From: Candidatus Scalindua sp.
GTDB taxonomy: Bacteria > Planctomycetota > Brocadiia > Brocadiales > Scalinduaceae
Length of the DNA: 34,308 nucleotides
NCBI GenBank assembly: GCA_024654465.1
Contig: JANLHC010000133.1
Coordinates: 1 to 34,308, forward strand
Direction of reading: 5' to 3'
In this document: positions 8,798-31,906 of the stretch, piece by piece
Layout of the letters: each line of letters begins with the position of its first letter
How positions within the stretch are numbered: position 1 is the first letter of the stretch
The notes under the pieces: model-generated
The model's database searches: none
Told to the model about the DNA's origin: nothing
What the model saw: the letters and a program-made list of their open reading frames with translations, nothing else
Translations under genes and position numbers: made by a program

Positions 8798-10000
8798 TTA
8801 CTTTCCGGAAATTATCTTTCCCAGAACAACACTCTCCTTTGCGCCTGTAGCGGAGGGAACGTTGCCCGGATTTCCACTTACGGTTTCATTGGCAAGAATA
8901 GCAAATGCCAACGCTTCCTTTGCCTCGGAAGGAATGCCGAAGTCATCAACCGTTCTTACACTTATATCTTCAAGATAGTCTTTCAAGAATTGAAGCAAGA
9001 CAGGATTACTCACACCTCCACCGCTTATGATGACCTCGTCAATTTTGTAACATGGTTGAATAAATTTTGTATAACTGCCTGATATTGACTTAGCCGTAAA
9101 GGCTGTAATTGTCGCAATCGCATCATGAACTTCTATGTTGTCCTGTTTTAATTCCTTGTATAAATCATCAGAAAACTGAATACCGAAGTCCTCTCTTCCC
9201 GTTGATTTTGGTGGGGGTTTCGATAAATAGGGATGATCGCACAGCCGTTCCAACAAATCTTGATTCAATTTGCCTTTTGAAGCTAACTCGCCATTTTTAT
9301 CATACTTTAATCTTCCATCGGTTATAATCTCGGCAAATCGGTCAATTATCATATTACCCGGCCCATTATCAAAGGCAATTATTTCATCAATGTTCCCGTC
9401 AGCAGGTAAAAACGTAACATTAGAAATACCACCAATATTTTGAATTGCCCTGCCAATCTTAGCTCTTCCGAATAAAATAAAATCAGCATAGGGCACAAGG
9501 GGTGCACCTTCCCCTCCTGCCGCAATATCCCTTGTCCTGAAATCGGCAACAGTGGTTACTCCCGTCTCCTGGGCTATTACGGAAGGCTCACCTATCTGCA
9601 GTGTTGATCTTACCTCCTTATCATTATTCTCTTTCAATGAAGAAACATGATAAATTGTATGTCCATGAGAACCAATAATGTCTACGTCTGAAAGTGGAAC
9701 CGACAATTTTACGGCAATCTGCCTGGCCGCATCAGCAAATAATTTACCTAATATAAAATTCAGTTGGCAGATTTTATCAACGGTTCCGGTCTCTTTACAA
9801 GAGGCTTCAAATATTAGCTCCCTCATTTCATTTTCATAAGGGTATGTCTCAACCCCTATAATATCAACTTTAGTTGATAAACCATTCCCGGTTATTTTAA
9901 CCAGACATGCATCAATGCCATCACACGATGTACCAGACATCAAGCCAATAATATTACGGCTCTCTTTTTCTTTTAAACTGATTAAGTTTTTTATCGACAT
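8798..10000 (-). CDS. anmK: Anhydro-N-acetylmuramic acid kinase
   Basis: Phosphorylates and opens 1,6-anhydro-MurNAc released in peptidoglycan recycling, giving MurNAc 6-phosphate. The open frame runs upstream to 10180, but that extension would overlap the next gene and is an unlikely sequence. The start at 10000 (MSIKNLISLKEKESRNIIGL) leaves about 400 residues, close to the family size of about 370. Landmarks are IIGLMSGTSCDGIDACLVKI near the N-terminus, GSHGHTIYH, LQIGEPSVIAQETGVTTVADFRTRDIAAGGEGAPLVPYAD, NIGGISNVTFLP, FDNGPGNMIID, IISGGGVSNP and the C-terminal PSATGA. No clear ribosome binding site precedes the start. A cell wall with recyclable anhydromuropeptides is implied, which matters for an organism that may be a planctomycete. 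Confidence 0.95.
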   Translation of the reverse strand: MSIKNLISLKEKESRNIIGLMSGTSCDGIDACLVKITGNGLSTKVDIIGVETYPYENEMRELIFEASCKETGTVDKICQLNFILGKLFADAARQIAVKLSVPLSDVDIIGSHGHTIYHVSSLKENNDKEVRSTLQIGEPSVIAQETGVTTVADFRTRDIAAGGEGAPLVPYADFILFGRAKIGRAIQNIGGISNVTFLPADGNIDEIIAFDNGPGNMIIDRFAEIITDGRLKYDKNGELASKGKLNQDLLERLCDHPYLSKPPPKSTGREDFGIQFSDDLYKELKQDNIEVHDAIATITAFTAKSISGSYTKFIQPCYKIDEVIISGGGVSNPVLLQFLKDYLEDISVRTVDDFGIPSEAKEALAFAILANETVSGNPGNVPSATGAKESVVLGKIISGK

Positions 10001-10169
10001 TTTGTATTGATTAAAAAGAAGTATACACAGGATTTGAATTTCTGGCGGTACATGGAGGTGAAATGAAAAAGCATGATTGATAAAACCCGATCTTATATTT
10101 TTATCAAAAAAATAGTACAAAACGACAAAAGCAAGAAAAGGATACTGGCATGAATATAGATTAAGTATT

Positions 10170-12836
10170 TTAAGGATCAAACAAGTTTAATTCTTTCTTT
10201 ATACAATTGACTCTCTCTTTAGTCTGCCATATTCTGATTGCCATCAAGTCACGGATGTAACCAAACATTATATTTGATCTCCGCTCCTCTATAATATAAG
10301 TATAAGCGTCCATTGCTTTTCCGTAATAAGCCACCTTTTCATCTTCATATAACAGTGCTAACTCTTCATATAGATTGCCAATTCGACATTGTGCGTTAAA
10401 GGGTGTTATCCCCGTAAACTTATTTATTATTTCATTGAATTTTGTAGTTGCCTTTTCATAGTTGATTTTTGCCCCTTCATCATCACCTACATCATAAAGA
10501 GCCAGACCCACATAATGATACGCTTCTGCTACCGCATACGTATGTTCCTGTGCCTCTTTCTTTACTCCGTCCTTAAGTTCATCCAGTATGTTTTGGTTTC
10601 TCCGTTCCACCGCCTCAACAATACTGATACTGAGTGGAATTCCTGAATCTTCAAGTTCATTCTGGCTCTCAACCCGTACATGTGGAAGTAATAATTTTGA
10701 AAGCGCCTCCAAACCTAGTTCTTTAATAAAAAAGAGTTCACTGACAGAATTAAATTTTTCATGCGTCCTCCTATAATTCATAACTATACCTGTTTCTTCT
10801 TTGCTGATGCCAAATTCTGTAGTCAAAAATAGAGACAACTCTTCATCATTTGCCCGGTTCAATTCTTTATATAATCTTAGCAATTTGATTAAAACAGCCA
10901 ATTTATAAGAAGGTGTTTCTCCGTGCAGGACGGTCCTCCTATAGAAGACAAGCCAAGGATTTCTGCAAGAAAAATTTAGCTTCCTTTTGTAGTCGTAAAG
11001 AATTTCCAGGGCTACTCCAAGTTTGCATTTTCCCATCTCCTTTGTGGCTTTATGACTGAGACCCTGATATATATTATCGATCCGGTTAAAATAGCCAGCT
11101 ATCATGTCTTTCATCTGGATGGCATTTACTTTGCGATGTAGTTTCAGCTCGTGTGGGCTTAACTCTAATGCCTTTTTATAATGTTCAATAGCTTCATCGT
11201 ATAGTTGACAGTGATAGCATGTGTCCCCCTGGTATTCATAAAATCTTTTAACCATTCTCCTTGGTCTGAGTCGCTCCTTCTCTTCCTCATCTAAATGGCC
11301 CGATTTTTCAAAATGTTCTATTATCTCTTTTGGCGTCTGCAAAGATTTTTTTGTAAGAAAGTCTAATCCTGAAATGTATTCATACACCGAATTGCATCTC
11401 TGTATCATATCATTGCTGATACCATTGCATATTTTCGCCTTCTGAATACAATCCCTTGCCTCTTGAAATAAACCGAACTCTGAGTATGCCTTTCCTAATT
11501 GAACAAGCAAGCTCACATTGGCTTCACAATTTGCTTCTTGATTATCTTTGTATTGCTCCAATAACTTACCAATGACAGTCTTATACATAACGGGAACAAT
11601 CTCAACTTTATTATCTGCAACACGAACTACGAATACATTAATATCTCCCGATTCCGGATTAATATTCACCCCCGGTACTTCTTCTCCGTCAGGAAACTTT
11701 ATCCACGGTGTCTTCTTAATAACACTTGCAGTAAAAACTATGTCCTTGCCCTTAACTAAATCTTTTAGAGCTAATATTCTGTTCCACGGTATTTCTCCCT
11801 CTTTTTCTGTACCAGGTCTTACAATCTTAAAATTCCTAAGAATATCAATTTCATTCTTCTTAAAAGAATCCCAATTACTCAGTTTTCCCAATAGTCGTTC
11901 TTGTTGTGCCACCTCAAGCGGCAATATCCTCAATGTCATTTCCCCGCCCAATTGTTCTACCAATATACTACTTAAAACCGCTTCGGGAACACCTCCCACT
12001 CCTATGATCATATCAATTTCACCCCTCGTCACTGCAAATGTGGGAGTCAGGTCATCTTCTTTGACAAGGATTACTTCTGCCCCGAGATTATTAATGGTTG
12101 CTATGAGTTGCTTATGTCTCAACCTGTCCAGGACAACAATCTTCATTTTATGCATTTCGTCAGCAATATTCTGTGGAGTGATCTCCTCATTCTTATCTTT
12201 CAGCATCTTTCCAGCCATGAGCTTTAGATTTTTTGTGATACCATGCGTTATATTAACCCCTGCACCTTTATATTTGTTTCCAACTATGGCCTTCACACAA
12301 TACATATCAGGAGAATTAAATAGCTTCTGCCTTTCACTATAGCCAACTGCGACGATCACCCCTCCCTTAGATTCCGGGTCCACAATACAACGATCATTCT
12401 CGAAAGCGCTCAGCACAATATCCGCCTCGCAATCCTTATTCACTGTTTCAGAACCGAATCTTTCACCTATATACAACATTGGCATCTCTTTTCGCTCCCC
12501 CTCCGCATTTACCACAACAGCCTTCCACCAGTTGAAACTGTTATAAATATGCCTGAACCACCAGACCGCCATACATCTTGCACGAAAGATATTGAACTCC
12601 TCTCCATTCGTACTGAAATACCGTAACGTCCTTGCCGCAACAATTCCGACAGCGTGTCTTAATTCATTTCTTTTCGTCAACTGAAGGCCATTCTCAGAAG
12701 AAAGCTTCAAATCAAAACGTTCCGGAATATAGGCATCCAAGATATAAGGATCATCTATTTTTTCAAAGTCAATACTGTTGTCTTTTATGAATTCAGTATT
12801 ATCTTCCGCCTGTTCATCTTTAATAATATTACTCAT
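10170..12836 (-). CDS. GlpX-like (class II fructose-bisphosphatase fold) domain fused to TPR repeats
   Basis: Residues about 55-400 resemble class II fructose-1,6-bisphosphatase GlpX. They include EMPMLYIGERFG near 117, NSPDMYCVKAIVG, the VLDRLRHKQLIATINNLGAE segment, and GVGGVPEAVLSS near 279 (GlpX has GIGGAPEG). The acidic metal motif DPxEGT of GlpX aligns with SAFEND near 143-148, and GEGEIDE aligns with AEGERKE, so key catalytic acids appear lost. From about 430 onward the protein is helical with TPR-like repeats (near 440-480, 531-570, 770-850). A ComEA-like helix-hairpin-helix segment (NYRRTHEKFNSVSELFFIKE) lies near 687-706. This is probably a scaffold or regulatory protein derived from a sugar phosphatase. 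No signal peptide is present. The gene stands alone. Confidence 0.7.
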   Translation of the reverse strand: MSNIIKDEQAEDNTEFIKDNSIDFEKIDDPYILDAYIPERFDLKLSSENGLQLTKRNELRHAVGIVAARTLRYFSTNGEEFNIFRARCMAVWWFRHIYNSFNWWKAVVVNAEGERKEMPMLYIGERFGSETVNKDCEADIVLSAFENDRCIVDPESKGGVIVAVGYSERQKLFNSPDMYCVKAIVGNKYKGAGVNITHGITKNLKLMAGKMLKDKNEEITPQNIADEMHKMKIVVLDRLRHKQLIATINNLGAEVILVKEDDLTPTFAVTRGEIDMIIGVGGVPEAVLSSILVEQLGGEMTLRILPLEVAQQERLLGKLSNWDSFKKNEIDILRNFKIVRPGTEKEGEIPWNRILALKDLVKGKDIVFTASVIKKTPWIKFPDGEEVPGVNINPESGDINVFVVRVADNKVEIVPVMYKTVIGKLLEQYKDNQEANCEANVSLLVQLGKAYSEFGLFQEARDCIQKAKICNGISNDMIQRCNSVYEYISGLDFLTKKSLQTPKEIIEHFEKSGHLDEEEKERLRPRRMVKRFYEYQGDTCYHCQLYDEAIEHYKKALELSPHELKLHRKVNAIQMKDMIAGYFNRIDNIYQGLSHKATKEMGKCKLGVALEILYDYKRKLNFSCRNPWLVFYRRTVLHGETPSYKLAVLIKLLRLYKELNRANDEELSLFLTTEFGISKEETGIVMNYRRTHEKFNSVSELFFIKELGLEALSKLLLPHVRVESQNELEDSGIPLSISIVEAVERRNQNILDELKDGVKKEAQEHTYAVAEAYHYVGLALYDVGDDEGAKINYEKATTKFNEIINKFTGITPFNAQCRIGNLYEELALLYEDEKVAYYGKAMDAYTYIIEERRSNIMFGYIRDLMAIRIWQTKERVNCIKKELNLFDP

Positions 12837-14580: not shown

Positions 14581-15435
14581 TCAAGCAGGTTGATTTAACC
14601 CGTCTCTGACCTGCTTTACATGGTCATCAAACGTAGGGATTTCTTCCCGGAAGAAAAGTCCCTGGTAAATAGGGTTCGTGCTTTCTGCCAACGTAATAGC
14701 GTTTGAACGGTCCAGAGTATTATGCTCTTCAGGAAGCTTTTTTGCTACATTGTTCCAGCTATCATACGTGACATCTTTATTAAATACGACGCAGGGTGAC
14801 AGATCATGGACAAATGAAAAACCTTTATGCTGGATGGCTTTGGTAATTAGTTCAGACACCATATCACGTTCTCTGGAAAACGTTCTTGCCACAAAAGTGG
14901 CTCCGTATGCCAGTGCGAGGGTAGTGGGATTTAGCGGGCGTGCAATATTTCCGTATGGAGACGTGCCGCTCTTCATCCCCATTGGTGAAGTTGGAGATAT
15001 CTGCCCTTTGGTCAGGCCGTAAATGCTGTTATCCAATAATATGTAGGTAAGATTAAAATTGCTCCTCGCGGCATGGGGGAAATGACCTCCTCCTATTCCA
15101 ACACCGTCTCCATCTCCACCAACGACTACAACGGTTAAATTCGGGCTGGCGACTTTAATCCCGGTAGCTATTGGTATTGCTCTGCCGTGCAACCCGTGTA
15201 ATCCAAAGCCTTTAATGAAAAAAGGAAATCTACCGGAGCAGCCAATTCCGGAAACTACTACAAAATCTTTGGGCGGGATTTTCAATTTTTCAGCTGCTTC
15301 ATAGAGACCGTGAAGCCCTGTAAAATGCCCGCATCCGGGACACCATGTGGGAAGATTGTCTCTCCACTCTTTTGTTTTGGACGCCTTTGCTTTTTTTAAT
15401 TCATCTAAAACGGTCTGTTTACTGAGAAAGCTCAC
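14581..15435 (-). CDS. korB: 2-oxoacid:ferredoxin oxidoreductase beta subunit, set 1
   Basis: Thiamine-diphosphate subunit of a 2-oxoacid:ferredoxin oxidoreductase (2-oxoglutarate type likely), which interconverts 2-oxoacid plus CoA with acyl-CoA, CO2 and reduced ferredoxin. The 284 residues hold four cluster cysteines in the expected places: WCPGCG (C32, C35), GIGCSG (C66) and LSPCVVF (C215). The ThDP motif GGDGDGVGIGGGHFPHAARS is at about 106-125, followed by DNSIYGLTKGQISPTSPMG. The start is GTG at 15435 inside the end of korA (17-base overlap), with GGAG upstream, indicating translational coupling. It is the last gene of a four-gene operon. Substrate specificity (2-oxoglutarate, pyruvate or a branched-chain acid) cannot be fixed from motifs alone. 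Confidence 0.95.
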   Translation of the reverse strand: MSFLSKQTVLDELKKAKASKTKEWRDNLPTWCPGCGHFTGLHGLYEAAEKLKIPPKDFVVVSGIGCSGRFPFFIKGFGLHGLHGRAIPIATGIKVASPNLTVVVVGGDGDGVGIGGGHFPHAARSNFNLTYILLDNSIYGLTKGQISPTSPMGMKSGTSPYGNIARPLNPTTLALAYGATFVARTFSRERDMVSELITKAIQHKGFSFVHDLSPCVVFNKDVTYDSWNNVAKKLPEEHNTLDRSNAITLAESTNPIYQGLFFREEIPTFDDHVKQVRDGLNQPA

Positions 15436-17176
15436 TATTGGTCTCCATAATCTTTTGGGCGATTTTTAAAGGGCTTACCGGGTTGACAGCAGGTATGTGT
15501 ATCTCGATCGGTTTTATACCGTAGCGTGATTTTAACAAGGCTGCATACTGTCCCTGGTAATTCATCTCCGGTATAATAATCTTCTTACATGAGTCAAAGA
15601 ATTTCCGAAAGGAATCTTCATGCTGTGGATGAATCATAATGGATTTTATCAGTTTCGTTTTAACTCCCTGTTTTTTTGCTATTTCCATCCCTTCCAGGAT
15701 TGAACCTATCGTTGATCCCCAACCGGCAATTCCAATTTCGGCAGTTTCATCCCCGAGGATGTCTGCCGTAGGAAGATCTGCCACCATAGAATCAAATTTG
15801 CGAAATCGTTTAGCCGTCATCATGCTGTGAACATCAGATTCATAGTTGGGATTTCCTTTTGCTGAATGTTCCAGTCCGGTAGTAGAGTAGACAGCTCCCG
15901 GTTCTCCGGGAACGATAAGGGGAGAAACACCATCGTCAGTAATTTGATAGCGCAGGAAATTTTTTAATTGTTCTGATGTCGGTTTCTTTCTGGTACATCT
16001 ATCCCGGTCAATATTTTCCTTGATCGTAACGGTTTCTGTACGCTGTCCCAGGAACAGATCACTGAGAAAGATAACCGGTGTCTGGTATTTTTCGGCAATG
16101 TCAAAAGCCAGTTGAATGCCACTGTAGCACTCTTCAGTATCAGTGGGCGCCATTACCACCCTGGGAGAATCACCGGCGCCGCCATAAAGGGCAATATTAA
16201 GATCTCCCTGCTCAACTTTAGTGGGCAGCCCTGTAGAAGGGCCGCCACGTTGAACATTAACAATGACTGTCGGGATTTCAGCCATTACCGACAAGTTAAT
16301 CATTTCACTCATCAGTGAAAGGCCGGGACCGGAAGTGGCAGTCATTGCGCGCTTTCCGGCAAACCAGGCTCCCAATACCGCACCGATAGCCGCAATTTCG
16401 TCCTCCATCTGGAGGGTCCATCCACCCAGCTTCGGCAATTCCTTTGCCGCGATCTCCATGATTTTTGTTGCCGGCGTAATGGGATATCCCGCAAAGAATT
16501 TCAAACCGCAATCTATTGCACCTTTGGCAATCGCATCGTTGCCACTTGTCAGTTTCCTGGGTTTTGATCTTTTGTCAATCTCAAACTGGTTATTAAGAGG
16601 ATAATTTTCCTTGAAATATTCATAACCTAAACGGAAGGCTTTAATATTTATCTCTACTACCCGCTCACCCTTTCGGGTGAATAAACCTTTTATCTGATCT
16701 ACAAACATCTCAGGTGGCAATGAATAGAAGTAACATATTGCTCCAATTGCAACCAGGTTTTTCCCTTGATTTGTACCTGATGCTTCATTTGCCAGTTTCG
16801 TAATGGGCAGACCATGTCCTTGTATTTCCGGTGTGATATGTGACACCAGACTATCTTCTTCCACTACATCACCGATCGTGCTGGTGTCATAAATTACATT
16901 ACCTCGCTCCTTAACATCACGCAGGTCAATAATAGATTCTTTACTCACCATTCCCACAAGCAGGTCTAAACCATCACCCATACTATACAGCTTTGATGTT
17001 GAAAACCTGATTGTTGCGGAAGATTTACCAAGGCCCCTGATTTCAGCACTGTAGATATTATTTACCATTACATGCAAACCTATTTTGGCACATGCACCCG
17101 CTAAAATCTTTCCTGAAGCTACTATGCCGTCACCCGCTATTCCACAGAAGCGAATTGTAATTTCGGAATATTTCAT
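15419..17176 (-). CDS. korA: 2-oxoacid:ferredoxin oxidoreductase fused gamma-alpha subunit, set 1
   Basis: About 585 residues. Residues 1-190 are the gamma domain (ITIRFCGIAGDGIVASGKIL, then SAEIRGLGKSSATIR). From about 215 the alpha domain follows, with FAGYPITPATKIMEIAAKEL, ATSGPGLSLMSEMINLSVMA, VNVQRGGPSTGLPTKVEQGD and DLFLGQRTE. YPITPAT and QRGGPSTGLPT are standard for KorA-type proteins that bind the 2-oxoacid and CoA. The ATG at 17176 overlaps the upstream stop as ATGA, with GGTGG just before it. This start is preferred to the GTG codons at 17185 and 17182. It partners the downstream beta subunit. No delta (ferredoxin) subunit is encoded, so a soluble ferredoxin, or the ferredoxin-like tail of the first gene in the operon, is the likely electron partner. 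Confidence 0.95.
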   Translation of the reverse strand: MKYSEITIRFCGIAGDGIVASGKILAGACAKIGLHVMVNNIYSAEIRGLGKSSATIRFSTSKLYSMGDGLDLLVGMVSKESIIDLRDVKERGNVIYDTSTIGDVVEEDSLVSHITPEIQGHGLPITKLANEASGTNQGKNLVAIGAICYFYSLPPEMFVDQIKGLFTRKGERVVEINIKAFRLGYEYFKENYPLNNQFEIDKRSKPRKLTSGNDAIAKGAIDCGLKFFAGYPITPATKIMEIAAKELPKLGGWTLQMEDEIAAIGAVLGAWFAGKRAMTATSGPGLSLMSEMINLSVMAEIPTVIVNVQRGGPSTGLPTKVEQGDLNIALYGGAGDSPRVVMAPTDTEECYSGIQLAFDIAEKYQTPVIFLSDLFLGQRTETVTIKENIDRDRCTRKKPTSEQLKNFLRYQITDDGVSPLIVPGEPGAVYSTTGLEHSAKGNPNYESDVHSMMTAKRFRKFDSMVADLPTADILGDETAEIGIAGWGSTIGSILEGMEIAKKQGVKTKLIKSIMIHPQHEDSFRKFFDSCKKIIIPEMNYQGQYAALLKSRYGIKPIEIHIPAVNPVSPLKIAQKIMETNSELSQ

Positions 17177-18174
17177 TTCCACCACCTTGCTTTCAGTGAT
17201 TGTCCCATAAGATTGAAAACAATTGCTTCTTGAATTTTGTATTCCTCATGTTGTCCCAACATATTCTTACCGGCAATTTTTCCCTGTTCCAACGCGTTAG
17301 GCAGTCCAAAATTAATCCAGTAATCTTTAATGCCGGGATGATAAATTTCTACACAATCTCCAGCCGCGTAGATGTCTTTCTGAGATGTTTCCAGTTTTAC
17401 GTTCACTAAAATACCCAGTTTTTTTTCTATGGCAGAACCTTCTATACATGAGATATTTGGCTTATAATAATCCCAGGCAAAGACAATATCAGCCGTTAAC
17501 ATCGTTTGCTGTATTGATTCGACCTTGTAACCGTGATCTGACTCTTCTATAGAAACAATCTGGTCTGCGGTTATGATTTCTATTCCCTTTTCTTCCAGAA
17601 ACTCATGTAATTCACCTTCAAAATTATATTCATCCAGGGCAAATGTTGCCCGTTCTCCTTTGGTGATATAAGTAACCTGCTTTCCAAGGTTGCGCAACAT
17701 ACAGATCAAATCAAGGCAGCTTACGCCATCTCCAAAAACAACGCACTTCCGGATTTCAGGTAACTTTTCTTTTAATACCAGTGTATCGTATAAAGAATAA
17801 TAGAAGTGGATGTATTTCTTGTATGGTTGTAACACAAGTCCCAGTCCGGGACTGCCGCCGGTAGCAATGAGGAGTTTATCGTAATGCACAACTTCGTTAT
17901 GAAAGAGTTTAATCTCTTTTTTCGAAGGATCAATGGCTTTTACCCATGTACCGTTACGAAGTCTGATTCCCAACTCTTTCAACATGCTCATTGGGAAGAA
18001 AAATAATTCTTTTCTTCTTATGGAGTTACACAGAAATTCCGATAACAAATAGCGCTTGTATGGTAAAAACAATTCATCCCCGATTACCACAACTTCCGCA
18101 TTCCTGTCCAACTCCTTGATGGTTTTGGCGGCGGTGATCCCTGCTACTCCTGCACCAATAATAACATGTTTCAT
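17173..18174 (-). CDS. FAD-dependent pyridine nucleotide oxidoreductase-like protein
   Basis: The 333-residue protein has an N-terminal FAD motif (HVIIGAGVAGITAAKTIKEL), the ATG-type motif LLIATGGSPG near 105, and the closing FAD motif KDIYAAGDCVEIY. The middle nucleotide-binding motif reads VVFGDGVSCLDLICML, where the third glycine of GxGxxG is replaced by cysteine, so NAD(P)H binding may be altered. The family includes rubredoxin and nitrite-reductase NADH reductases and ferredoxin reductases. There is no redox CxxC of the thioredoxin-reductase kind. It overlaps the upstream gene and korA by four bases each (ATGA), so it is co-translated with them. It probably relays electrons between the GltD-like protein and KorAB or ferredoxin. 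The exact donor is unknown. Confidence 0.85.
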   Translation of the reverse strand: MKHVIIGAGVAGITAAKTIKELDRNAEVVVIGDELFLPYKRYLLSEFLCNSIRRKELFFFPMSMLKELGIRLRNGTWVKAIDPSKKEIKLFHNEVVHYDKLLIATGGSPGLGLVLQPYKKYIHFYYSLYDTLVLKEKLPEIRKCVVFGDGVSCLDLICMLRNLGKQVTYITKGERATFALDEYNFEGELHEFLEEKGIEIITADQIVSIEESDHGYKVESIQQTMLTADIVFAWDYYKPNISCIEGSAIEKKLGILVNVKLETSQKDIYAAGDCVEIYHPGIKDYWINFGLPNALEQGKIAGKNMLGQHEEYKIQEAIVFNLMGQSLKARWWK

Positions 18175-22939: not shown

Positions 22940-24634
22940 TTACATGAGTTTATATTTGGGACCACCATTTCCTTCAGGTACAGTCCATCTGATATTGTCA
23001 AACGGGCACTTTCTTTGACAGGTCTTACAGTGAACACAATTTGAGGGATTAGCCGGACGGGTATCAATTCCAATCTTCTCATAGACCCCGGCAGGACAAA
23101 ACGTTATACAAGCTCGATTAAATAGAGAGTCACATTGATTAATACAAAGGCTGGGGTCTAAAATACTTAGATGTGACGGCTGTTCTTCCCTGTGTTCTGT
23201 GACAGCCAATGCGACAAAAGTAGGCTTGTCAAATTCGCCGGGAGTATAAAAGGTAAACTTCCTGGAGGTCATAGTTTTATAATCTTTTTCCATAGTAAAC
23301 CTGGGAAGAAGATTGCCAGCGATTGAGAGTGGTACACCTATTGCCTGGCCAAATCTTGCAACTATTGCACGGAAATTTCTGGCTGATTTCATCTCATCCA
23401 TCACGGAATTACTTTCCAGCTTTCTGGTATATTCATCAGCAGCTTTCTCTGGGGTTTCCAAGCACTTAATTGCTGCATTGCCTGCGAGTGCGCCTGATTC
23501 TATAGCATTATGTAGTCCCTTTATTTTTTTCATATTTACAAAACCGGCACTGTCTCCAATTATCATTACATTCTTGTAGCCGACAGTTTTCATTGTTTTT
23601 TCATCAGAGCCTGATGGTAAGTAACGAGGTACAGCATAGTATCCACCTTCGGGAATCATCTTTACACCAGCTTCAATAATTTCCCCCCCATCAACGTACT
23701 CTCGGATAACGGTATGCTGCTTGAAATCTTCGAGTGCTTTTTGCGGATTAAAGTTATAATACTTCCAGTCTGCCCCGGCAATTATACCAACAGCAATTTC
23801 GTTTTCACCGCAGCTATACGCGAATCCGCCACCAAAAATTGCAGGTCCAAATATTGGCAACCATAATGGAAACCCCATCGTATGAATTACACGATTGTCA
23901 CCGAACGATTCATACTTCTGTTGACTTACTCGTATGATTTCTTTAACGCCAACCGAAAATACTTGATCGTTCTTACGGTTAAGACCAGCCTTTACGACAA
24001 AATCTTCAGTGACAAGACCATCCGTTCCTTCGGCAAGGATTATGATATCTGCCGTAATCGTTTCGCCCTCAATGTAATTTGGTTGCGGGTTTCCCTCTTT
24101 GTCAAGCCCCTGATCTACAAGCTTAACTCCATGAGCTTTCCTATTGTCCTGATCGTATAAGATTTCCTTTACACCAAAGCCTGTATAAATTTCGATACCC
24201 AATGATAAGGCAATTTCACCCAGTAACCTTGTTAACTTGCTTATTGAAACTATGGAATTGCCGTCATTACAGATTTCACCAAATGATAATCCTAATTTCT
24301 TGCAAATCTTCATCAGGAATGAAATATTAACTGCAAGTTCCTTTCCCAGGAGGAGTTGCACTTCATCGTCTTTTACCTCTCTTCCCAGGATACTATCTGC
24401 TCCTTTTATGGTACGCCAATCCGGTCTGGCTTCGTCAAGCAGGCGTTTTAACGAAGCCGTTTCCAAAACAGCTCCAGACAAGTTATGGTTCCCGACAGCC
24501 TCTCCTTTTTCCAGCACCGCAATGTCTGCATCTTTATTTGCACTTCTTGCTGCAATTGCGGCAGCAAGACCAGCAGGCCCCGCGCCAACAACAAGAATTG
24601 AAATGTGTGTATTATCCTTTTCTTTTATTTCCAT
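22940..24634 (-). CDS. ETF:quinone oxidoreductase, FixC-like with FixX-like ferredoxin tail
   Basis: Moves electrons between electron-transfer flavoprotein and the membrane quinone pool. The 564-residue protein (ATG at 24634 preferred over the TTG at 24643) has the FAD motif VVGAGPAGLAAAIAARSANK, then VLEKGEAVGNHNLSGAVLE, IILAEGTDGLVTEDF and a long ETF-QO core with MIPEGGYYAVPRYLPSGSDE and VMIIGDSAGFVNMKKIKGLH. The C-terminal 60 residues form the ferredoxin part: ACITFCPAGVYE and NCVHCKTCQRKCP, then WTVPEGNGGPKY. This fuses what Fix operons split into fixC and fixX. It lies 51 bases downstream of the fused ETF gene on the same strand, so the two form a functional pair. Confidence 0.95.
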   Translation of the reverse strand: MEIKEKDNTHISILVVGAGPAGLAAAIAARSANKDADIAVLEKGEAVGNHNLSGAVLETASLKRLLDEARPDWRTIKGADSILGREVKDDEVQLLLGKELAVNISFLMKICKKLGLSFGEICNDGNSIVSISKLTRLLGEIALSLGIEIYTGFGVKEILYDQDNRKAHGVKLVDQGLDKEGNPQPNYIEGETITADIIILAEGTDGLVTEDFVVKAGLNRKNDQVFSVGVKEIIRVSQQKYESFGDNRVIHTMGFPLWLPIFGPAIFGGGFAYSCGENEIAVGIIAGADWKYYNFNPQKALEDFKQHTVIREYVDGGEIIEAGVKMIPEGGYYAVPRYLPSGSDEKTMKTVGYKNVMIIGDSAGFVNMKKIKGLHNAIESGALAGNAAIKCLETPEKAADEYTRKLESNSVMDEMKSARNFRAIVARFGQAIGVPLSIAGNLLPRFTMEKDYKTMTSRKFTFYTPGEFDKPTFVALAVTEHREEQPSHLSILDPSLCINQCDSLFNRACITFCPAGVYEKIGIDTRPANPSNCVHCKTCQRKCPFDNIRWTVPEGNGGPKYKLM

Positions 24635-24685
24635 TATTATCAAAAATTGACGGTTTAAGATTGATATCCTTTAATTATCTCGATA

Positions 24686-26770
24686 TCAGTGTCTCAACGC
24701 TTCAGTAATTTGCGGTACAATCTCTTCCGCATTTCCAACCATGTAGTAATCAGAATGCTTAAAAATAGGTGCCAGTGGATCAGAATTAATGGCTACAATT
24801 ATTTCGGAATTTTCAATACCAATTAAGTGTTGTATAGCACCTGAAATTCCGAGCGCTATATAAAGCCTGGGACTGACAGCGGTTCCTGTTTGGCCAACCT
24901 GGTGGGTACGGTTAATAAAGCCTTGCTCTACGGCTGCCCTGGAAGCCCCAAGTTCAACCTGACAGTCAAGTTTCTTTCTAATCACTGCGGCCAAGTCGCT
25001 TACAAGTTTATCATAATTATCCTTGTTCCTGAGACCTCTACCACCTGAAACTACTACATCAGCGTTAGAGAGATTTGCACTTCCACCACTCAATTCGGTT
25101 TTAATAATATCAAACCCGACATCTGATTCGGCAAGAGTAACGCTATGTTCAATTATATTACCCTTTCGGGAATGGTCGGGCCTGTTTTTTTTCATTACCC
25201 CAAGTCTGGCAGTAGCCATTTGTATTTTTGAATCCTTTGTAATAATAGTTGCCATTATATTACCACCGAGGGCAGGACGGGTCTGCATCAATATTGCAAT
25301 ATTGCCTTGTCTTGAATTGTCCCTGATATCCAAACTGGTACAATCAGCTGTTAGCCCACAACCAAGGCGATAAGCAATCATGGGAGCTAAAACTCTCCCT
25401 TGAGGAGTAGCTCCAAACAAAACGATTTGTGGATTATGTTTCTTTATCGCATCAACAACAGCATTCCGGTAAGGTCCGGGCCTGAAATCTTCCAGAAGTA
25501 CATCTTCAATTATGTGAACATCATCTGCACCGGCAGCAATAAGGTCATTTGCCATATGTTTGCATTGGTAACCTGCAATAACAACACCTACTCTTACCCC
25601 TAATGGTTTCGCCAGGTGAGTGGCTTTTCCTAAAAGTTCACAGGTAACGTCATTCGTCTTTTTACCATCATGCTCAGCAATTACCCAGACATCACCGGAA
25701 TAACTGGTCTGTGTCGTCTTATACCCCTCGATCATTTCTTGTAACATTTTTTTAGTTAGTTTTTCCTGGAGATGTTCCTGAACCCTTTCAACAAGGGACT
25801 CATTCAGTTGATCTACTTTGGTGATCCCCAGCTTGGACAGAGCTTGCGTAACCTGTTTATACGCATTGATTTCTTTATCAGTACCTTCATAATTACGCTG
25901 AAACAAACCTCCTGGCCTATCTGACGGAACTATATAATCTGTCTCTTCTCCTTCAAAAGCACCACTCGATCTACCTTTTTTATAGGTCGACACCAACTCT
26001 TTAACAAACTCATCAATATTATGACAATGTTTATTTTTTCTGGCACCCTTCGGTGGTGGAAAAACTCTTGTCACACGTGTCTTAGATCCATCGTAACCAA
26101 ACAATGTGGGTTTTATATCATCTGCGGTCCAATTAATTACTGCAAATTTGTTGGCCCATCGTGAACGCCTAAAAGATGCAAACAATGGGTATTCATAATT
26201 AGCAACTGTTACCACGTATGGTAGCGCCTTAGGACTTACCCACTGATTGCCACCAGAAACGATTTTCTCAATTCGGAACTTACCATTAATAGACTCAACC
26301 TCTGTTGCATATGCAATACAGGGTATTTGTAACTCCTCAGCTATTTGTGCGGGTACCTGAGCGGTATCACCATCAACCGATTGCATACCCGATATCACCA
26401 CATAATCATCATTTCCATTGAATATATCTTTTGCTATTTTCCTTATGGCATATGCTAATGGATTAGCTGTTGCGGGGGTATCTGCACCTCCCAGTACTCT
26501 ATCTGTAAGGAGTACAGCATGGTCAGCACACCGGCTCAACGAATATGTTAATACTTCACTGGATTTTGGTGGCCCCATTGTGAGACAAACTATCTTTCCG
26601 GGTGATAAGTGTTTCATCTTATTGGCAAACGCGAGTGCATCTGCATCAAGTTTGTTGATCACACTGGGTAATGTACCACGTTTTAAGGTACCGGTTTCAG
26701 GATTGAAAGCGTTGCCGGTAATTTGAGTTATGTCGGGGACCTGCTTAACAGTAACAATGTAGTTGCTCAT
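24686..26770 (-). CDS. Fused electron-transfer flavoprotein (EtfB-EtfA in one chain)
   Basis: One 694-residue chain replaces the usual two subunits. Residues about 1-260 are EtfB-like (NYIVTVKQVPDITQITGNAF, DADALAFANKMK, and SGMQSVDGDTAQVPAQIAEE near 127-146). A linker of about 100 charged residues follows. From about 360 comes EtfA (VWVIAEHDG, then GATPQGRVLAPMIAYRLGCG, TRPALGGNIMATI, SRAAVEQGFINRTHQVGQTG, LYIALGISGAIQHLIGIENS, INSDPLAPIF), with the full FAD-binding signature. DGDTAQV is typical of Fix-type/bifurcating ETFs, whereas respiratory EtfB proteins have a different loop. The ATG at 26770 is preferred to an upstream TTG at 26782. With the adjacent ETF-QO it makes a two-polypeptide Fix-like complex. 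Confidence 0.93.
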   Translation of the reverse strand: MSNYIVTVKQVPDITQITGNAFNPETGTLKRGTLPSVINKLDADALAFANKMKHLSPGKIVCLTMGPPKSSEVLTYSLSRCADHAVLLTDRVLGGADTPATANPLAYAIRKIAKDIFNGNDDYVVISGMQSVDGDTAQVPAQIAEELQIPCIAYATEVESINGKFRIEKIVSGGNQWVSPKALPYVVTVANYEYPLFASFRRSRWANKFAVINWTADDIKPTLFGYDGSKTRVTRVFPPPKGARKNKHCHNIDEFVKELVSTYKKGRSSGAFEGEETDYIVPSDRPGGLFQRNYEGTDKEINAYKQVTQALSKLGITKVDQLNESLVERVQEHLQEKLTKKMLQEMIEGYKTTQTSYSGDVWVIAEHDGKKTNDVTCELLGKATHLAKPLGVRVGVVIAGYQCKHMANDLIAAGADDVHIIEDVLLEDFRPGPYRNAVVDAIKKHNPQIVLFGATPQGRVLAPMIAYRLGCGLTADCTSLDIRDNSRQGNIAILMQTRPALGGNIMATIITKDSKIQMATARLGVMKKNRPDHSRKGNIIEHSVTLAESDVGFDIIKTELSGGSANLSNADVVVSGGRGLRNKDNYDKLVSDLAAVIRKKLDCQVELGASRAAVEQGFINRTHQVGQTGTAVSPRLYIALGISGAIQHLIGIENSEIIVAINSDPLAPIFKHSDYYMVGNAEEIVPQITEALRH

Positions 26771-26782
26771 TTTACGTCCCAA

Positions 26783-29342: not shown

Positions 29343-31055
29343 ATGCCATTTGATTTTAATATCACCATCGCCGGTAGTGCGGGACAGGGACTGCAGACAA
29401 TTGCCGGAATTCTCACCAAGGTGCTTGCCAGAAATGGTTATCACCTTTTTACATCCCAGGACTATATGTCCAGAATTCGTGGCGGTCACAACTTCACCAA
29501 TATTCGGGTGAGTGACAAGCCGGTATATGCTCCGACCGTGTCTTCCCAACTACTGGTCGCGCTTGATCAGGAAAGTGTGGAAGTACATTATCAATCTTTA
29601 ACCGGTCCCGCAATCATTGTCCACGATTCCGATACCATAAAAGTAATAAAAGCGCGAAATATTCAAGTCGTTGCGGTTCCCCTGGCAAAATTATCAAATG
29701 AAAGTGGCAGCCCCGTTTATATAAACTCTGTAGCGGCAGGGGTTTTGTTTTCGCTTTTGAGGCTCGACCTTAAAGATCTCGTCGGTTTTCTGGAAACCCG
29801 CTTTGAAGAAAAATCACCGGAACAAATTAAAGGGAATATAAATGCCGCCACAAAAGGATTCACATACACTTCAGAAAATTATCAAAATATTAAAACTACT
29901 ATTGGCACGGTAAGAAAGAAGAACCGGATGTTGATAAATGGGGCGGAGTCAATAGCGATTGGGATGATCGCCGGTGGGGTTCGGTTTATCAGCGCGTATC
30001 CAATGTCACCATCTACAGGAATCTTCATATATATAACCGGTAAGGCCAAGAAGTTTGGAATAATATCAGAACAGGCAGAGGACGAGATAGCTGCTTGCAA
30101 TATGGCGCTGGGAGCAGGGGCTGCAGGTGCGCGTTCCGCTGTCACAACTTCCGGAGGAGGTCTTTCTCTGATGTGTGAAGGTATCAGTCTTGCCGGGGCA
30201 GCTGAAATTCCGGTAGTGATAGCAAATATGCAGAGACCCGGTCCCGCAACCGGGTCTCCAACACGTACCGCACAGGAGGATCTCGACCTGGTTTTGAATA
30301 TAGGTCATGGAGAATTTCCACGCTTTGTTTTTGCTCCGGGTACAGCGGAAGAGGCCTTTTATACCTCCATTCACGCAATGAACCTTGCCGAAAAATATCA
30401 GGTACCCGTGTTTATACTCGGAGATCAGCATCTGGTTGACAGCTCTATTACCCTGGACAAGCTCAATCCAAACAAGGTTAAGTACAAAAGCTATATGGTT
30501 AAAAGCGGCAATCTGAAAAAGCCTTATCTTCGATATAAAAATACGAAGAGCGGTGTATCACCTCTGGCGTATTACGGACAGGATAAGGTAACGTTCATAG
30601 TAGATAGTCATGTACATACTGAGGATGGCCACATTTCCGAAGACATGGTTGTTGCAGAAAAACTGACAGAAAAACGCTTTAGAAAAATTAATGATATGAA
30701 AAAAGAATTTTACGGGCCGCAATATTATGGTCTGCAAAATGCTAAAACAGTTTTAGTGTCATGGGGATCAACGTATGGGGCTGTCAGGGAGACAATAGAT
30801 TATTTGCTTGAGAAGAAAAAGAGCGTAGCAATGATTCATTATAATAAGATATGGCCATTCCCTGTAGAGGAATCGATCAGGCTCCTGAAATCGAGAAAAG
30901 ATATTCGTGTGGTTGAAAACAACTACCAGGCACAATTCAATAGATTGCTTAAGAGGGAAACCAGGATAGATACGGGAGAACCTATCCTGAGGTACGACGG
31001 ACGTCCATTCGATGTGCGGTTTATCGTCAAAAAGTTTGAAAAGAGGCAGAAATGA
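29343..31055 (+). CDS. korA: 2-oxoacid:ferredoxin oxidoreductase fused gamma-alpha subunit, set 2
   Basis: The 570-residue protein has gamma domain 1-190 (FNITIAGSAGQGLQTIAGIL, then SRIRGGHNFTNIRVSDKP) and an alpha domain with SAYPMSPSTGIFIYITGKAK, AVTTSGGGLSLMCEGISLAG, NMQRPGPATGSPTRTAQEDL and HGEFPRFVFAPGTAEEAFYT. Compared with set 1 the substrate loop is YPMSPST instead of YPITPAT, and QRPGPATGSPT instead of QRGGPSTGLPT. The two enzymes are therefore distinct paralogues, probably with different 2-oxoacids. AAGGA precedes the ATG at 29343. The TGA overlaps the korB start as ATGA. Its position after aconitase suggests work on TCA-cycle intermediates such as 2-oxoglutarate, which is inference from context. 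Confidence 0.94.
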   Translation: MPFDFNITIAGSAGQGLQTIAGILTKVLARNGYHLFTSQDYMSRIRGGHNFTNIRVSDKPVYAPTVSSQLLVALDQESVEVHYQSLTGPAIIVHDSDTIKVIKARNIQVVAVPLAKLSNESGSPVYINSVAAGVLFSLLRLDLKDLVGFLETRFEEKSPEQIKGNINAATKGFTYTSENYQNIKTTIGTVRKKNRMLINGAESIAIGMIAGGVRFISAYPMSPSTGIFIYITGKAKKFGIISEQAEDEIAACNMALGAGAAGARSAVTTSGGGLSLMCEGISLAGAAEIPVVIANMQRPGPATGSPTRTAQEDLDLVLNIGHGEFPRFVFAPGTAEEAFYTSIHAMNLAEKYQVPVFILGDQHLVDSSITLDKLNPNKVKYKSYMVKSGNLKKPYLRYKNTKSGVSPLAYYGQDKVTFIVDSHVHTEDGHISEDMVVAEKLTEKRFRKINDMKKEFYGPQYYGLQNAKTVLVSWGSTYGAVRETIDYLLEKKKSVAMIHYNKIWPFPVEESIRLLKSRKDIRVVENNYQAQFNRLLKRETRIDTGEPILRYDGRPFDVRFIVKKFEKRQK

Positions 31056-31906
31056 CAAAAGAAAACCACTTCCATTATTCTGTTGAGAGGGCATGGTGTC
31101 CGGGATGCGGGGATTACAGCATACTTTCTTCGGTAGAAAACGCACTTGCTAATTTGAAGAAAAAACCACATGAGGTGCTCATGGTTTCAGGAATAGGGCA
31201 GGCGGCAAAACTGCCGCATTATATCAAAGCAAATGGTTTCGACGGTTTACATGGGAGGGCATTGCCGGCAGCCTTTGGGGCAAAAGTTGCAAACCACAAA
31301 CTCATGGTGCTTGTTACAAGTGGAGATGGAGACATCTATGGGGAAGGTGGCAACCATTTCATACATGCTATACGCAGAAATATCGATATTACCTTAATCG
31401 TTCATAATAATCAGATTTATGGCCTTACCAAAGGACAGGCATCTCCCACTTCTGATCTGGGAATGGTAACGAAAACTCAGCCCGATGGTGTATTTACCAT
31501 CCCTTTTAATCCATTAGAGATGGCGGTTACTCTGGACGCAGCTTTTGTCGCGAGGAGCTTTTCAAAGGATATGGCGTTTACCACAAAGCTGATAGAGGAA
31601 GGAATTCGCACTCCCGGTTTTTCACTCATCGATGTACTTCAGCCGTGCGTTTCTTTTAACCATGTCAATACTTACAAGTGGTACAGTGACAGGGTGTACC
31701 AACTTGACAATTCCTATGATCCTACAGACAAATCAAAAGCATATAAAAAATCAAGTGAATGGGGAGATAAAATACCGATAGGCGTAATTTTCAAAAATTC
31801 CCGAAAAACCTATCTGGATAATTTTATAAAACATAAGGACCTTCCGTTAATAAAAAGAAAAACAAATATTAAGGAGGTAGATTCATTAATTAATGAACTC
31901 TATTGA
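31052..31906 (+). CDS. korB: 2-oxoacid:ferredoxin oxidoreductase beta subunit, set 2
   Basis: The 284-residue ThDP subunit pairs with the overlapping upstream gene (ATGA). It has WCPGCGDYSILSSVENAL (C16, C19), the ThDP motif SGDGDIYGEGGNHFIHAIRR near 90-109, HNNQIYGLTKGQASPTSDLG, and LQPCVSFNH (C199). At the position of the third cluster cysteine it reads SGIGQAAKLPHY (Gln50), whereas set 1 has SGIGCSGR. This points to a different cluster type or a missing ligand. The same GIGQAAK pattern marks a recognisable subfamily of these enzymes, so it is not a random change. The spacer after the stop has no strong terminator. The role is CO2-fixing or oxidative 2-oxoacid metabolism with ferredoxin. 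Confidence 0.94.
   Translation: MTKENHFHYSVERAWCPGCGDYSILSSVENALANLKKKPHEVLMVSGIGQAAKLPHYIKANGFDGLHGRALPAAFGAKVANHKLMVLVTSGDGDIYGEGGNHFIHAIRRNIDITLIVHNNQIYGLTKGQASPTSDLGMVTKTQPDGVFTIPFNPLEMAVTLDAAFVARSFSKDMAFTTKLIEEGIRTPGFSLIDVLQPCVSFNHVNTYKWYSDRVYQLDNSYDPTDKSKAYKKSSEWGDKIPIGVIFKNSRKTYLDNFIKHKDLPLIKRKTNIKEVDSLINELY

Follow-up and report, generated by a model that had tools for sequence, protein, structure and literature searches.

Gene organization and domain architecture

The window analysed here is a stretch of 34,308 nucleotides from a metagenome-assembled genome (MAG) of 2.5 Mb in 380 contigs that is 86% complete, and, among named organisms, the locus has close relatives in Candidatus Scalindua and other Brocadiales. 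An open reading frame with an ATG start on the minus strand (10170..12836) encodes a protein of 888 amino acids in which a degenerate GlpX domain (class II fructose-1,6-bisphosphatase, FBPase) is fused to TPR and helix-hairpin-helix (HhH) segments. Forty orthologous fusion sequences sharing 54-93% identity were aligned and are co-linear over the full length. The GlpX fold occupies residues ~60-420 (11577..12659) and is flanked by an N-terminal extension of ~60 residues and a TPR/HhH arm of ~450 residues. The arm is composed of a first TPR block (residues ~437-625, 10962..11528), a divergent ComEA-like (HhH)2 element (residues ~658-722, 10671..10865) and a conserved C-terminal TPR-like block (residues 723-888, 10173..10670) that has 23% of its columns invariant and carries a near-invariant SQNELED-x-x-IPL motif.

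The adjoining ORF for AnmK (8798-10180, minus strand) is listed with a TTG start that overlaps the stop of the GlpX-TPR gene; an ATG at ~10000 (MSIKNLISLKEKE) is the likelier start, and ~170 bases then separate the two genes. Elsewhere in the window, a 698-residue protein (24686-26782, minus strand) with two electron-transfer-flavoprotein (ETF) domains and an ETF-alpha FAD domain is apparently a fused ETF beta and alpha, adjoined by an ETF-QO-like gene (22940-24643). The 34-kb window also holds two separate 2-oxoacid:ferredoxin oxidoreductase alpha/beta pairs (14581-17185, minus strand; 29343-31906, plus strand).

The GlpX fold named in the original prediction was borne out by profile and structure alike. 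Residues 90-379 match PF03320 with 140.9 bits against a cut-off of 27, and all 40 orthologues match it as well. The score for the GlpX equivalog TIGR00330 (114.1 bits) lies below its cut-off of 259, so the domain is homologous to GlpX but not an equivalog. An earlier full-length AlphaFold model built from orthologues only had rendered the GlpX half poorly, which was remedied by adding canonical and paralogous sequences; with 66 sequences as input (fusion orthologues, paralogues and canonical GlpX from Planctomycetota), residues 1-435 were modelled by AlphaFold2 with a pLDDT of 91.5 and a pTM of 0.91. Foldseek matched this domain model to 24 class II FBPase chains (E 4e-25 to 6e-20), with a best TM-score, normalised to the target, of 0.83 to E. 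coli GlpX (3big), and returned no other fold below 1e-3. In the full-length model residues 421-882 form a helical array, and the Foldseek matches following those to GlpX are TPR proteins.

TPR and helix-hairpin-helix arm

The TPR assignment holds on a TPR_2 match at residues 532-562 (45.8 bits against a cut-off of 27, E 3.7e-12), which recurs in 39 of the 40 orthologues and lies in a region of paired helices in the model. Weaker repeats extend to residue 888, including a TPR_10 match at 769-796, and the last 166 residues are TPR-like and strongly conserved.

The ComEA-like HhH was right as a domain, but it is a divergent one. In the window's protein the ComEA-type profiles TIGR01259 and TIGR00426 reach E values of about 0.01 (range for ComEA-type HhH 0.01-0.15), and HHH_3 scores 12.6 bits, below its cut-off of 27; among the orthologues HHH_3 is matched in 4 of 40, with a best E of 1.1e-4. 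A comparison of the region's profile with E. coli YbaV by hhalign, covering 50 columns, suggests a collinear arrangement (probability 71%, P 3.7e-5), and the model places the helices accordingly. A PDB search with the same profile gave chance matches only. The hairpins read FGIS/FGMS and LGLE/LSLE, so that the glycines of GxG are mostly lost, and because these are the hairpins that contact DNA, DNA binding is unlikely; judged from these residues, the element may be structural or serve for docking.

In-frame insertions of variable length lie between the two HhH hairpins in some Brocadiaceae orthologues (L044:2390-2542, with equivalents in L041, L043, L048, L049 and L053). The insert of L044, 153 bases long, folds strongly (-47.6 kcal/mol) and is matched in part by the inserts at other loci, which is the behaviour expected of an interspersed palindromic repeat.

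Substitutions in the catalytic site

The catalytic site of class II FBPases comprises, in E. coli numbering, Asp33, Glu57, Asp85, Glu88, Thr90, Tyr119, Lys164, Arg166, Asp188 and Glu213, and an Arg/Arg/Tyr triad contacts phosphate-6 (PMC5892879). Replacement of the corresponding threonine in the M. tuberculosis enzyme (T84A) leaves it inactive (PMC5892879). D84 has been described as the high-affinity ligand of metal M1 and T89 as the proposed nucleophile (Asp85 and Thr90 in E. coli numbering), with the RDR (RxR) motif binding phosphate-6 and the DGD motif binding the furanose hydroxyls (PMC10289334).

The replacement of DPxEGT by SAFEND, as originally read, is exact. In a gap-free alignment DPxEGT (E. 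coli 85-90) corresponds to S143-A-F-E-N-D148 (12393..12410), where S, A, F, E and N are found in 40 of 40 orthologues: D85 is replaced by Ser143, G89 by asparagine, and T90 by Asp148 in 37 of the 40 (alanine or glycine in the other three), while E88 is kept as Glu146 (40/40). The change reported in GEGEIDE stands in part. The motif GEGEID (E. coli 56-61) corresponds to A111-E-G-E-R-K116 within N110-A-E-G-E-R-K116 (12489..12509); its real changes are G56 to alanine and D61 to Lys116 (39/40, alanine in one), but EGER is normal in GlpX of Planctomycetota, where the canonical form is EGERDEA. E57 is kept as Glu112 in every orthologue. We found an additional lesion, absent from the original prediction, at D33, which activates Thr90 and, together with Glu57, coordinates metal: it is replaced by Arg87 (12576..12578) in 40 of 40 orthologues and in all paralogues shown. 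Canonical GlpX proteins from other Planctomycetota retain D33, E57, D61 and DPx(E/D)GT together in 19 of 20 cases.

A complete metal site is thus not present in the sequence, as D33, D85 and T90 have been replaced, leaving only E57, E88 and E213, the last as Glu285 (39/40; glycine in paralogues) in G281-G-V-P-E285 (11982..11996; E. coli G209-E213). The loss of FBPase chemistry predicted from these substitutions is near certain.

The residues that hold the sugar phosphate present the reverse picture. Tyr179 (12300..12302; E. coli Y119) and both arginines of R238-x-R240 (12117..12125; K/R164 and R166) in the phosphate-6 pocket are invariant in all 66 canonical, fusion and paralogous sequences. 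The furanose-binding DGD motif is largely retained as E/D260-D-D262 (12051..12059), with Asp262 (D188) invariant in all 66 and D261 in the fusions; D186 has drifted to glutamate in part of Scalindua.

Conservation and selection pressure

These four residues are among the 14 columns that are invariant across all 66 sequences. The 19 canonical GlpX proteins in the alignment have 61 conserved columns, of which 31 are kept by the fusion and 20 by fusion and paralogue together, and all four phosphate-6 and furanose residues fall within those 20, for which the hypergeometric probability is ~0.009 by our own arithmetic. The figure is suggestive and not overwhelming, but its direction is clear, with the sugar-phosphate pocket kept and the chemistry lost.

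The dN/dS values of eight pairs (0.07-0.21, about 0.1) are similarly low in both halves of the gene, and conservation along the protein peaks in the GlpX domain, where 28% of the columns are invariant. This purifying selection together with the conservation of the GlpX domain indicates that the gene is not decaying.

Paralogue and gene neighbourhood

A second protein of ~1000 residues, encoded in seven Scalinduaceae genomes, is co-linear with the fusion over the GlpX and TPR parts at 23-25% identity. Pfam scores for its GlpX half are borderline or too low for detection (18.6 bits in the window's own genome); this half has arginine and lysine at D33 and D61, asparagine or threonine at D85, glutamate or glutamine at T90 and glycine at E213; the phosphate-6 clamp and D188 are kept. 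In a tree of GlpX domains, a branch with 100/100 support splits the canonical proteins from fusion and paralogue, which is most simply explained if the fused, degenerate form arose once; the placement of the paralogue inside or beside the fusion has a support of 39/90.

In the region L138:3359-8890 (G000:C154), genes for a RimK-like ATP-grasp protein, an AstE/AspA-like protein and a PF05618 Zn_protease come after the paralogue in the same orientation, separated by gaps of <60 bases. The cluster is found beside the paralogue at only three of the seven loci (L138, L142, L143) and is an apparent operon of peptide-modification type.

Across the loci compared, no conserved gene context that could point to a partner was found around the fusion. 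AnmK and EttA lie downstream of it in several Scalindua loci and not in those of Brocadiaceae. A CO-dehydrogenase/prismane-family gene (PF03063 in L034) stands upstream in divergent orientation in six Scalindua loci (L034, L035, L036, L037, L039, L045); it is found neither in the Brocadiaceae loci nor in the window, which has an acetyltransferase gene at that place. As this context is not conserved in Brocadiaceae, nothing was drawn from AnmK, EttA or the CO-dehydrogenase-family gene as functional partners.

A second degenerate enzyme with an HhH module

The best match to the fusion's HhH elsewhere in the genome is a protein of >1000 residues (~1100) with a phosphoglycerate kinase (PGK)-like N-terminal domain and a ComEA-type HhH scoring 47.2 bits; its C-terminal half, read by eye, appears to be a glutamate dehydrogenase (GDH). 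This PGK-HhH-GDH fusion was found in 13 genomes, all of family f1 (Scalinduaceae), for example at L170/L188 (G000:C322:413-3502, minus strand), L187 and L189. In the aligned PGK parts GGGDT and the arginine of ENLRF are lost and the lysine of GGAKV is changed, and a canonical PGK is also present alongside. In two genomes (G015 and G016) the PGK fusion and the GlpX-TPR gene share a strand and are 11-20 kb apart. More divergent PGK-like proteins were also seen as open frames of 471-509 residues (L190/L191 in G000:C258; L186 in G016:C55). The presence in the same bacteria of two degenerate gluconeogenic enzymes with HhH modules is striking, and their joint working is conjectural. It is imaginable, though we hold it doubtful, that in Scalinduaceae the FBPase pseudoenzyme with its TPR/HhH arm, the more degenerate paralogue and the PGK-HhH-GDH protein, whose PGK has lost its ATP motif, form a sensory set which reads intermediates of the gluconeogenic trunk and, by way of an HhH-type connector common to them, links carbon status with nitrogen assimilation.

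Distribution of the fusion and of other FBPases

Orthologues that are full-length or nearly so were recovered from 43 of 59 searched relatives. The search for the same architecture in related genomes, proposed with the original prediction, thus came out positive: the fusion is present in 46 of the 75 genomes of the class, all 46 of them within the order Brocadiales (46 of its 62). Outside this order, a sample of 392 genomes of the phylum yielded nothing but canonical GlpX. Long frames of 870, 857 and 1743 residues in other Planctomycetota were rejected as fusions of this kind, being canonical GlpX at the C-terminal end with no match to TPR or HhH.

The fusion is absent from all nine genomes of family f2, most of which carry hydrazine synthase, and another family has genomes that lack it although they are nearly complete and carry hydrazine synthase (G026, G036, G041, G042). 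The fusion is thus widespread among anammox bacteria but dispensable for anammox, and its use as an anammox-specific marker was rejected.

Of 58 Brocadiales genomes, 43 encode class I FBPase and none was found to encode a canonical GlpX. The archaeal-type FBPase_3 occurs in all nine f2 genomes and in none that bears the fusion. For gluconeogenesis Brocadiales can rely on class I or archaeal-type FBPase, and a need for the fusion as the sole FBPase of the cell was rejected on these counts. Fusion and class I FBPase occur together in 36 of 42 fusion-bearing genomes by our own count, which is confounded by descent. The other six show neither class I FBPase nor FBPase_3, and these absences may be MAG gaps.

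Proposed role and alternatives

The reading of the gene as a phosphatase turned into a sugar-phosphate sensor or scaffold, already put forward in the original prediction, is the best supported, since the hydrolytic residues are replaced, the pocket is invariant and the fusion to the arm is conserved. Between the two, we infer a sensor. On balance we favour a non-catalytic FBPase whose phosphosugar pocket gates protein binding by the TPR arm and so reports hexose-phosphate status; this is somewhat better than an even chance in our judgement, and in it we infer the ligand, the metal independence, the coupling, the partner and the output. The N-terminal half would be a class II FBPase pseudoenzyme that does not hydrolyse fructose-1,6-bisphosphate (FBP), because T90, D85 and D33 are replaced by aspartate, serine and arginine. 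A phosphosugar such as fructose 6-phosphate (F6P), FBP or a relative would be held by the Tyr/Arg/Arg clamp on phosphate-6 and by the aspartate that reads the furanose. R87 and K116 probably take the place of the lost cations near the former phosphate-1 site, beside the retained E112, and would make this binding independent of metal. Occupancy of the pocket could then alter how the TPR superhelix engages a protein partner, the divergent HhH serving for packing or docking, and the protein would report hexose-phosphate (gluconeogenic) status to that partner. Counting against a sensor, the retention of E57, E88 and E213 makes a weak or altered metal site possible, and the invariant pocket could mean a new reaction instead of sensing. 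The drift of D186 in part of Scalindua, the variable gene context and the dispensability for anammox also weigh against this reading.

The loss of catalytic residues in every orthologue and the conservation of the TPR/HhH arm would also suit a pure scaffold, in which the GlpX domain binds no metabolite and is a folded, perhaps tetrameric platform for the arm. Oligomerisation of the arms through this domain is conceivable, since canonical class II FBPases form 222 tetramers (PMC5892879). However, such a platform leaves unaccounted for the invariant Tyr, Arg, Arg and Asp in both the fusion and a paralogue 25% identical to it, in which two thirds of the other conserved positions are changed in one or both, and we regard it as unlikely. 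The dense invariant charged residues around the former active site and the strong purifying selection might instead reflect a pocket rebuilt for a metal-independent phosphosugar reaction through R87, K116, E112, E146 and S143. This appears quite improbable to us, as D148 is alanine or glycine in 3 of 40 orthologues, K116 is alanine in one, S143 is asparagine or threonine in paralogues, and no pathway genes are conserved nearby.

A class II FBPase/SBPase that is still active with a rearranged metal site could draw on E57, E88 and E213, which remain among the acidic residues of the catalytic site. We give it very little weight, as D85 (M1), T90 and D33 are gone in 40 of 40 orthologues, T84A inactivates the M. 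tuberculosis enzyme (PMC5892879) and the same genomes usually have a canonical FBPase of another class. The incompleteness and fragmentation of the MAG raise the thought of a sequence error, frameshift or pseudogene in one assembly, which has practically no chance: co-linear open frames occur in dozens of independent genomes, closed ones included, dN/dS is about 0.1, and the uniformity of the substitutions in 40 of 40 orthologues rejects a sequencing or assembly error.

The favoured sensor is of interest because most of the order, which is environmentally important, has kept the fusion. From its pocket one would predict that F6P, FBP or a relative is bound with no need of metal and is not turned over. 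Annotation pipelines can call the gene an FBPase, and the number of FBPases in these genomes is then overstated. Anammox bacteria make sugar by gluconeogenesis from fixed CO2, and to our knowledge there is no established account of how they regulate it.

Comparison with known systems

Pseudoenzymes that act as sensors or regulators are known as a kind. The GlpX-TPR family itself appears to be undescribed: in the open full-text literature, to which our search was confined with subscription papers outside its scope, we found no class II FBPase (GlpX) pseudoenzyme, GlpX-TPR fusion or study of GlpX in anammox bacteria. A bacterial precedent for a regulatory role in the wider lithium-sensitive phosphatase superfamily is SuhB, an inositol monophosphatase acting in rRNA transcription (PMC6614801); SuhB consists of a single domain, belongs to another family and lacks a TPR arm.

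With ComEA-type (HhH)2 proteins (PF12836; E. coli YbaV) the fusion appears to share the order and spacing of the helices and the signature N-A-x-x-EEL ... YR ... F-x-SV-x-EL ... V-x-x-L, but most of the DNA-contacting GxG hairpins are lost. With TPR proteins (TPR_1/TPR_2/TPR_12) it shares helical hairpin repeats that exceed the Pfam cut-off at 532-562, but has only one or two near-consensus repeats, an attached phosphatase fold and an interrupting HhH. In comparison with GlpX of E. coli and the class II enzymes (FBPaseII) of M. tuberculosis and F. tularensis, the fold, the Tyr/Arg/Arg clamp on phosphate-6, Asp188, Glu57, Glu88 and Glu213 are held in common, whereas the fusion differs at Asp33, Asp61, Asp85, Gly89 and Thr90, in its equivalog score below the cut-off and in carrying an N-terminal extension and a TPR/HhH arm.
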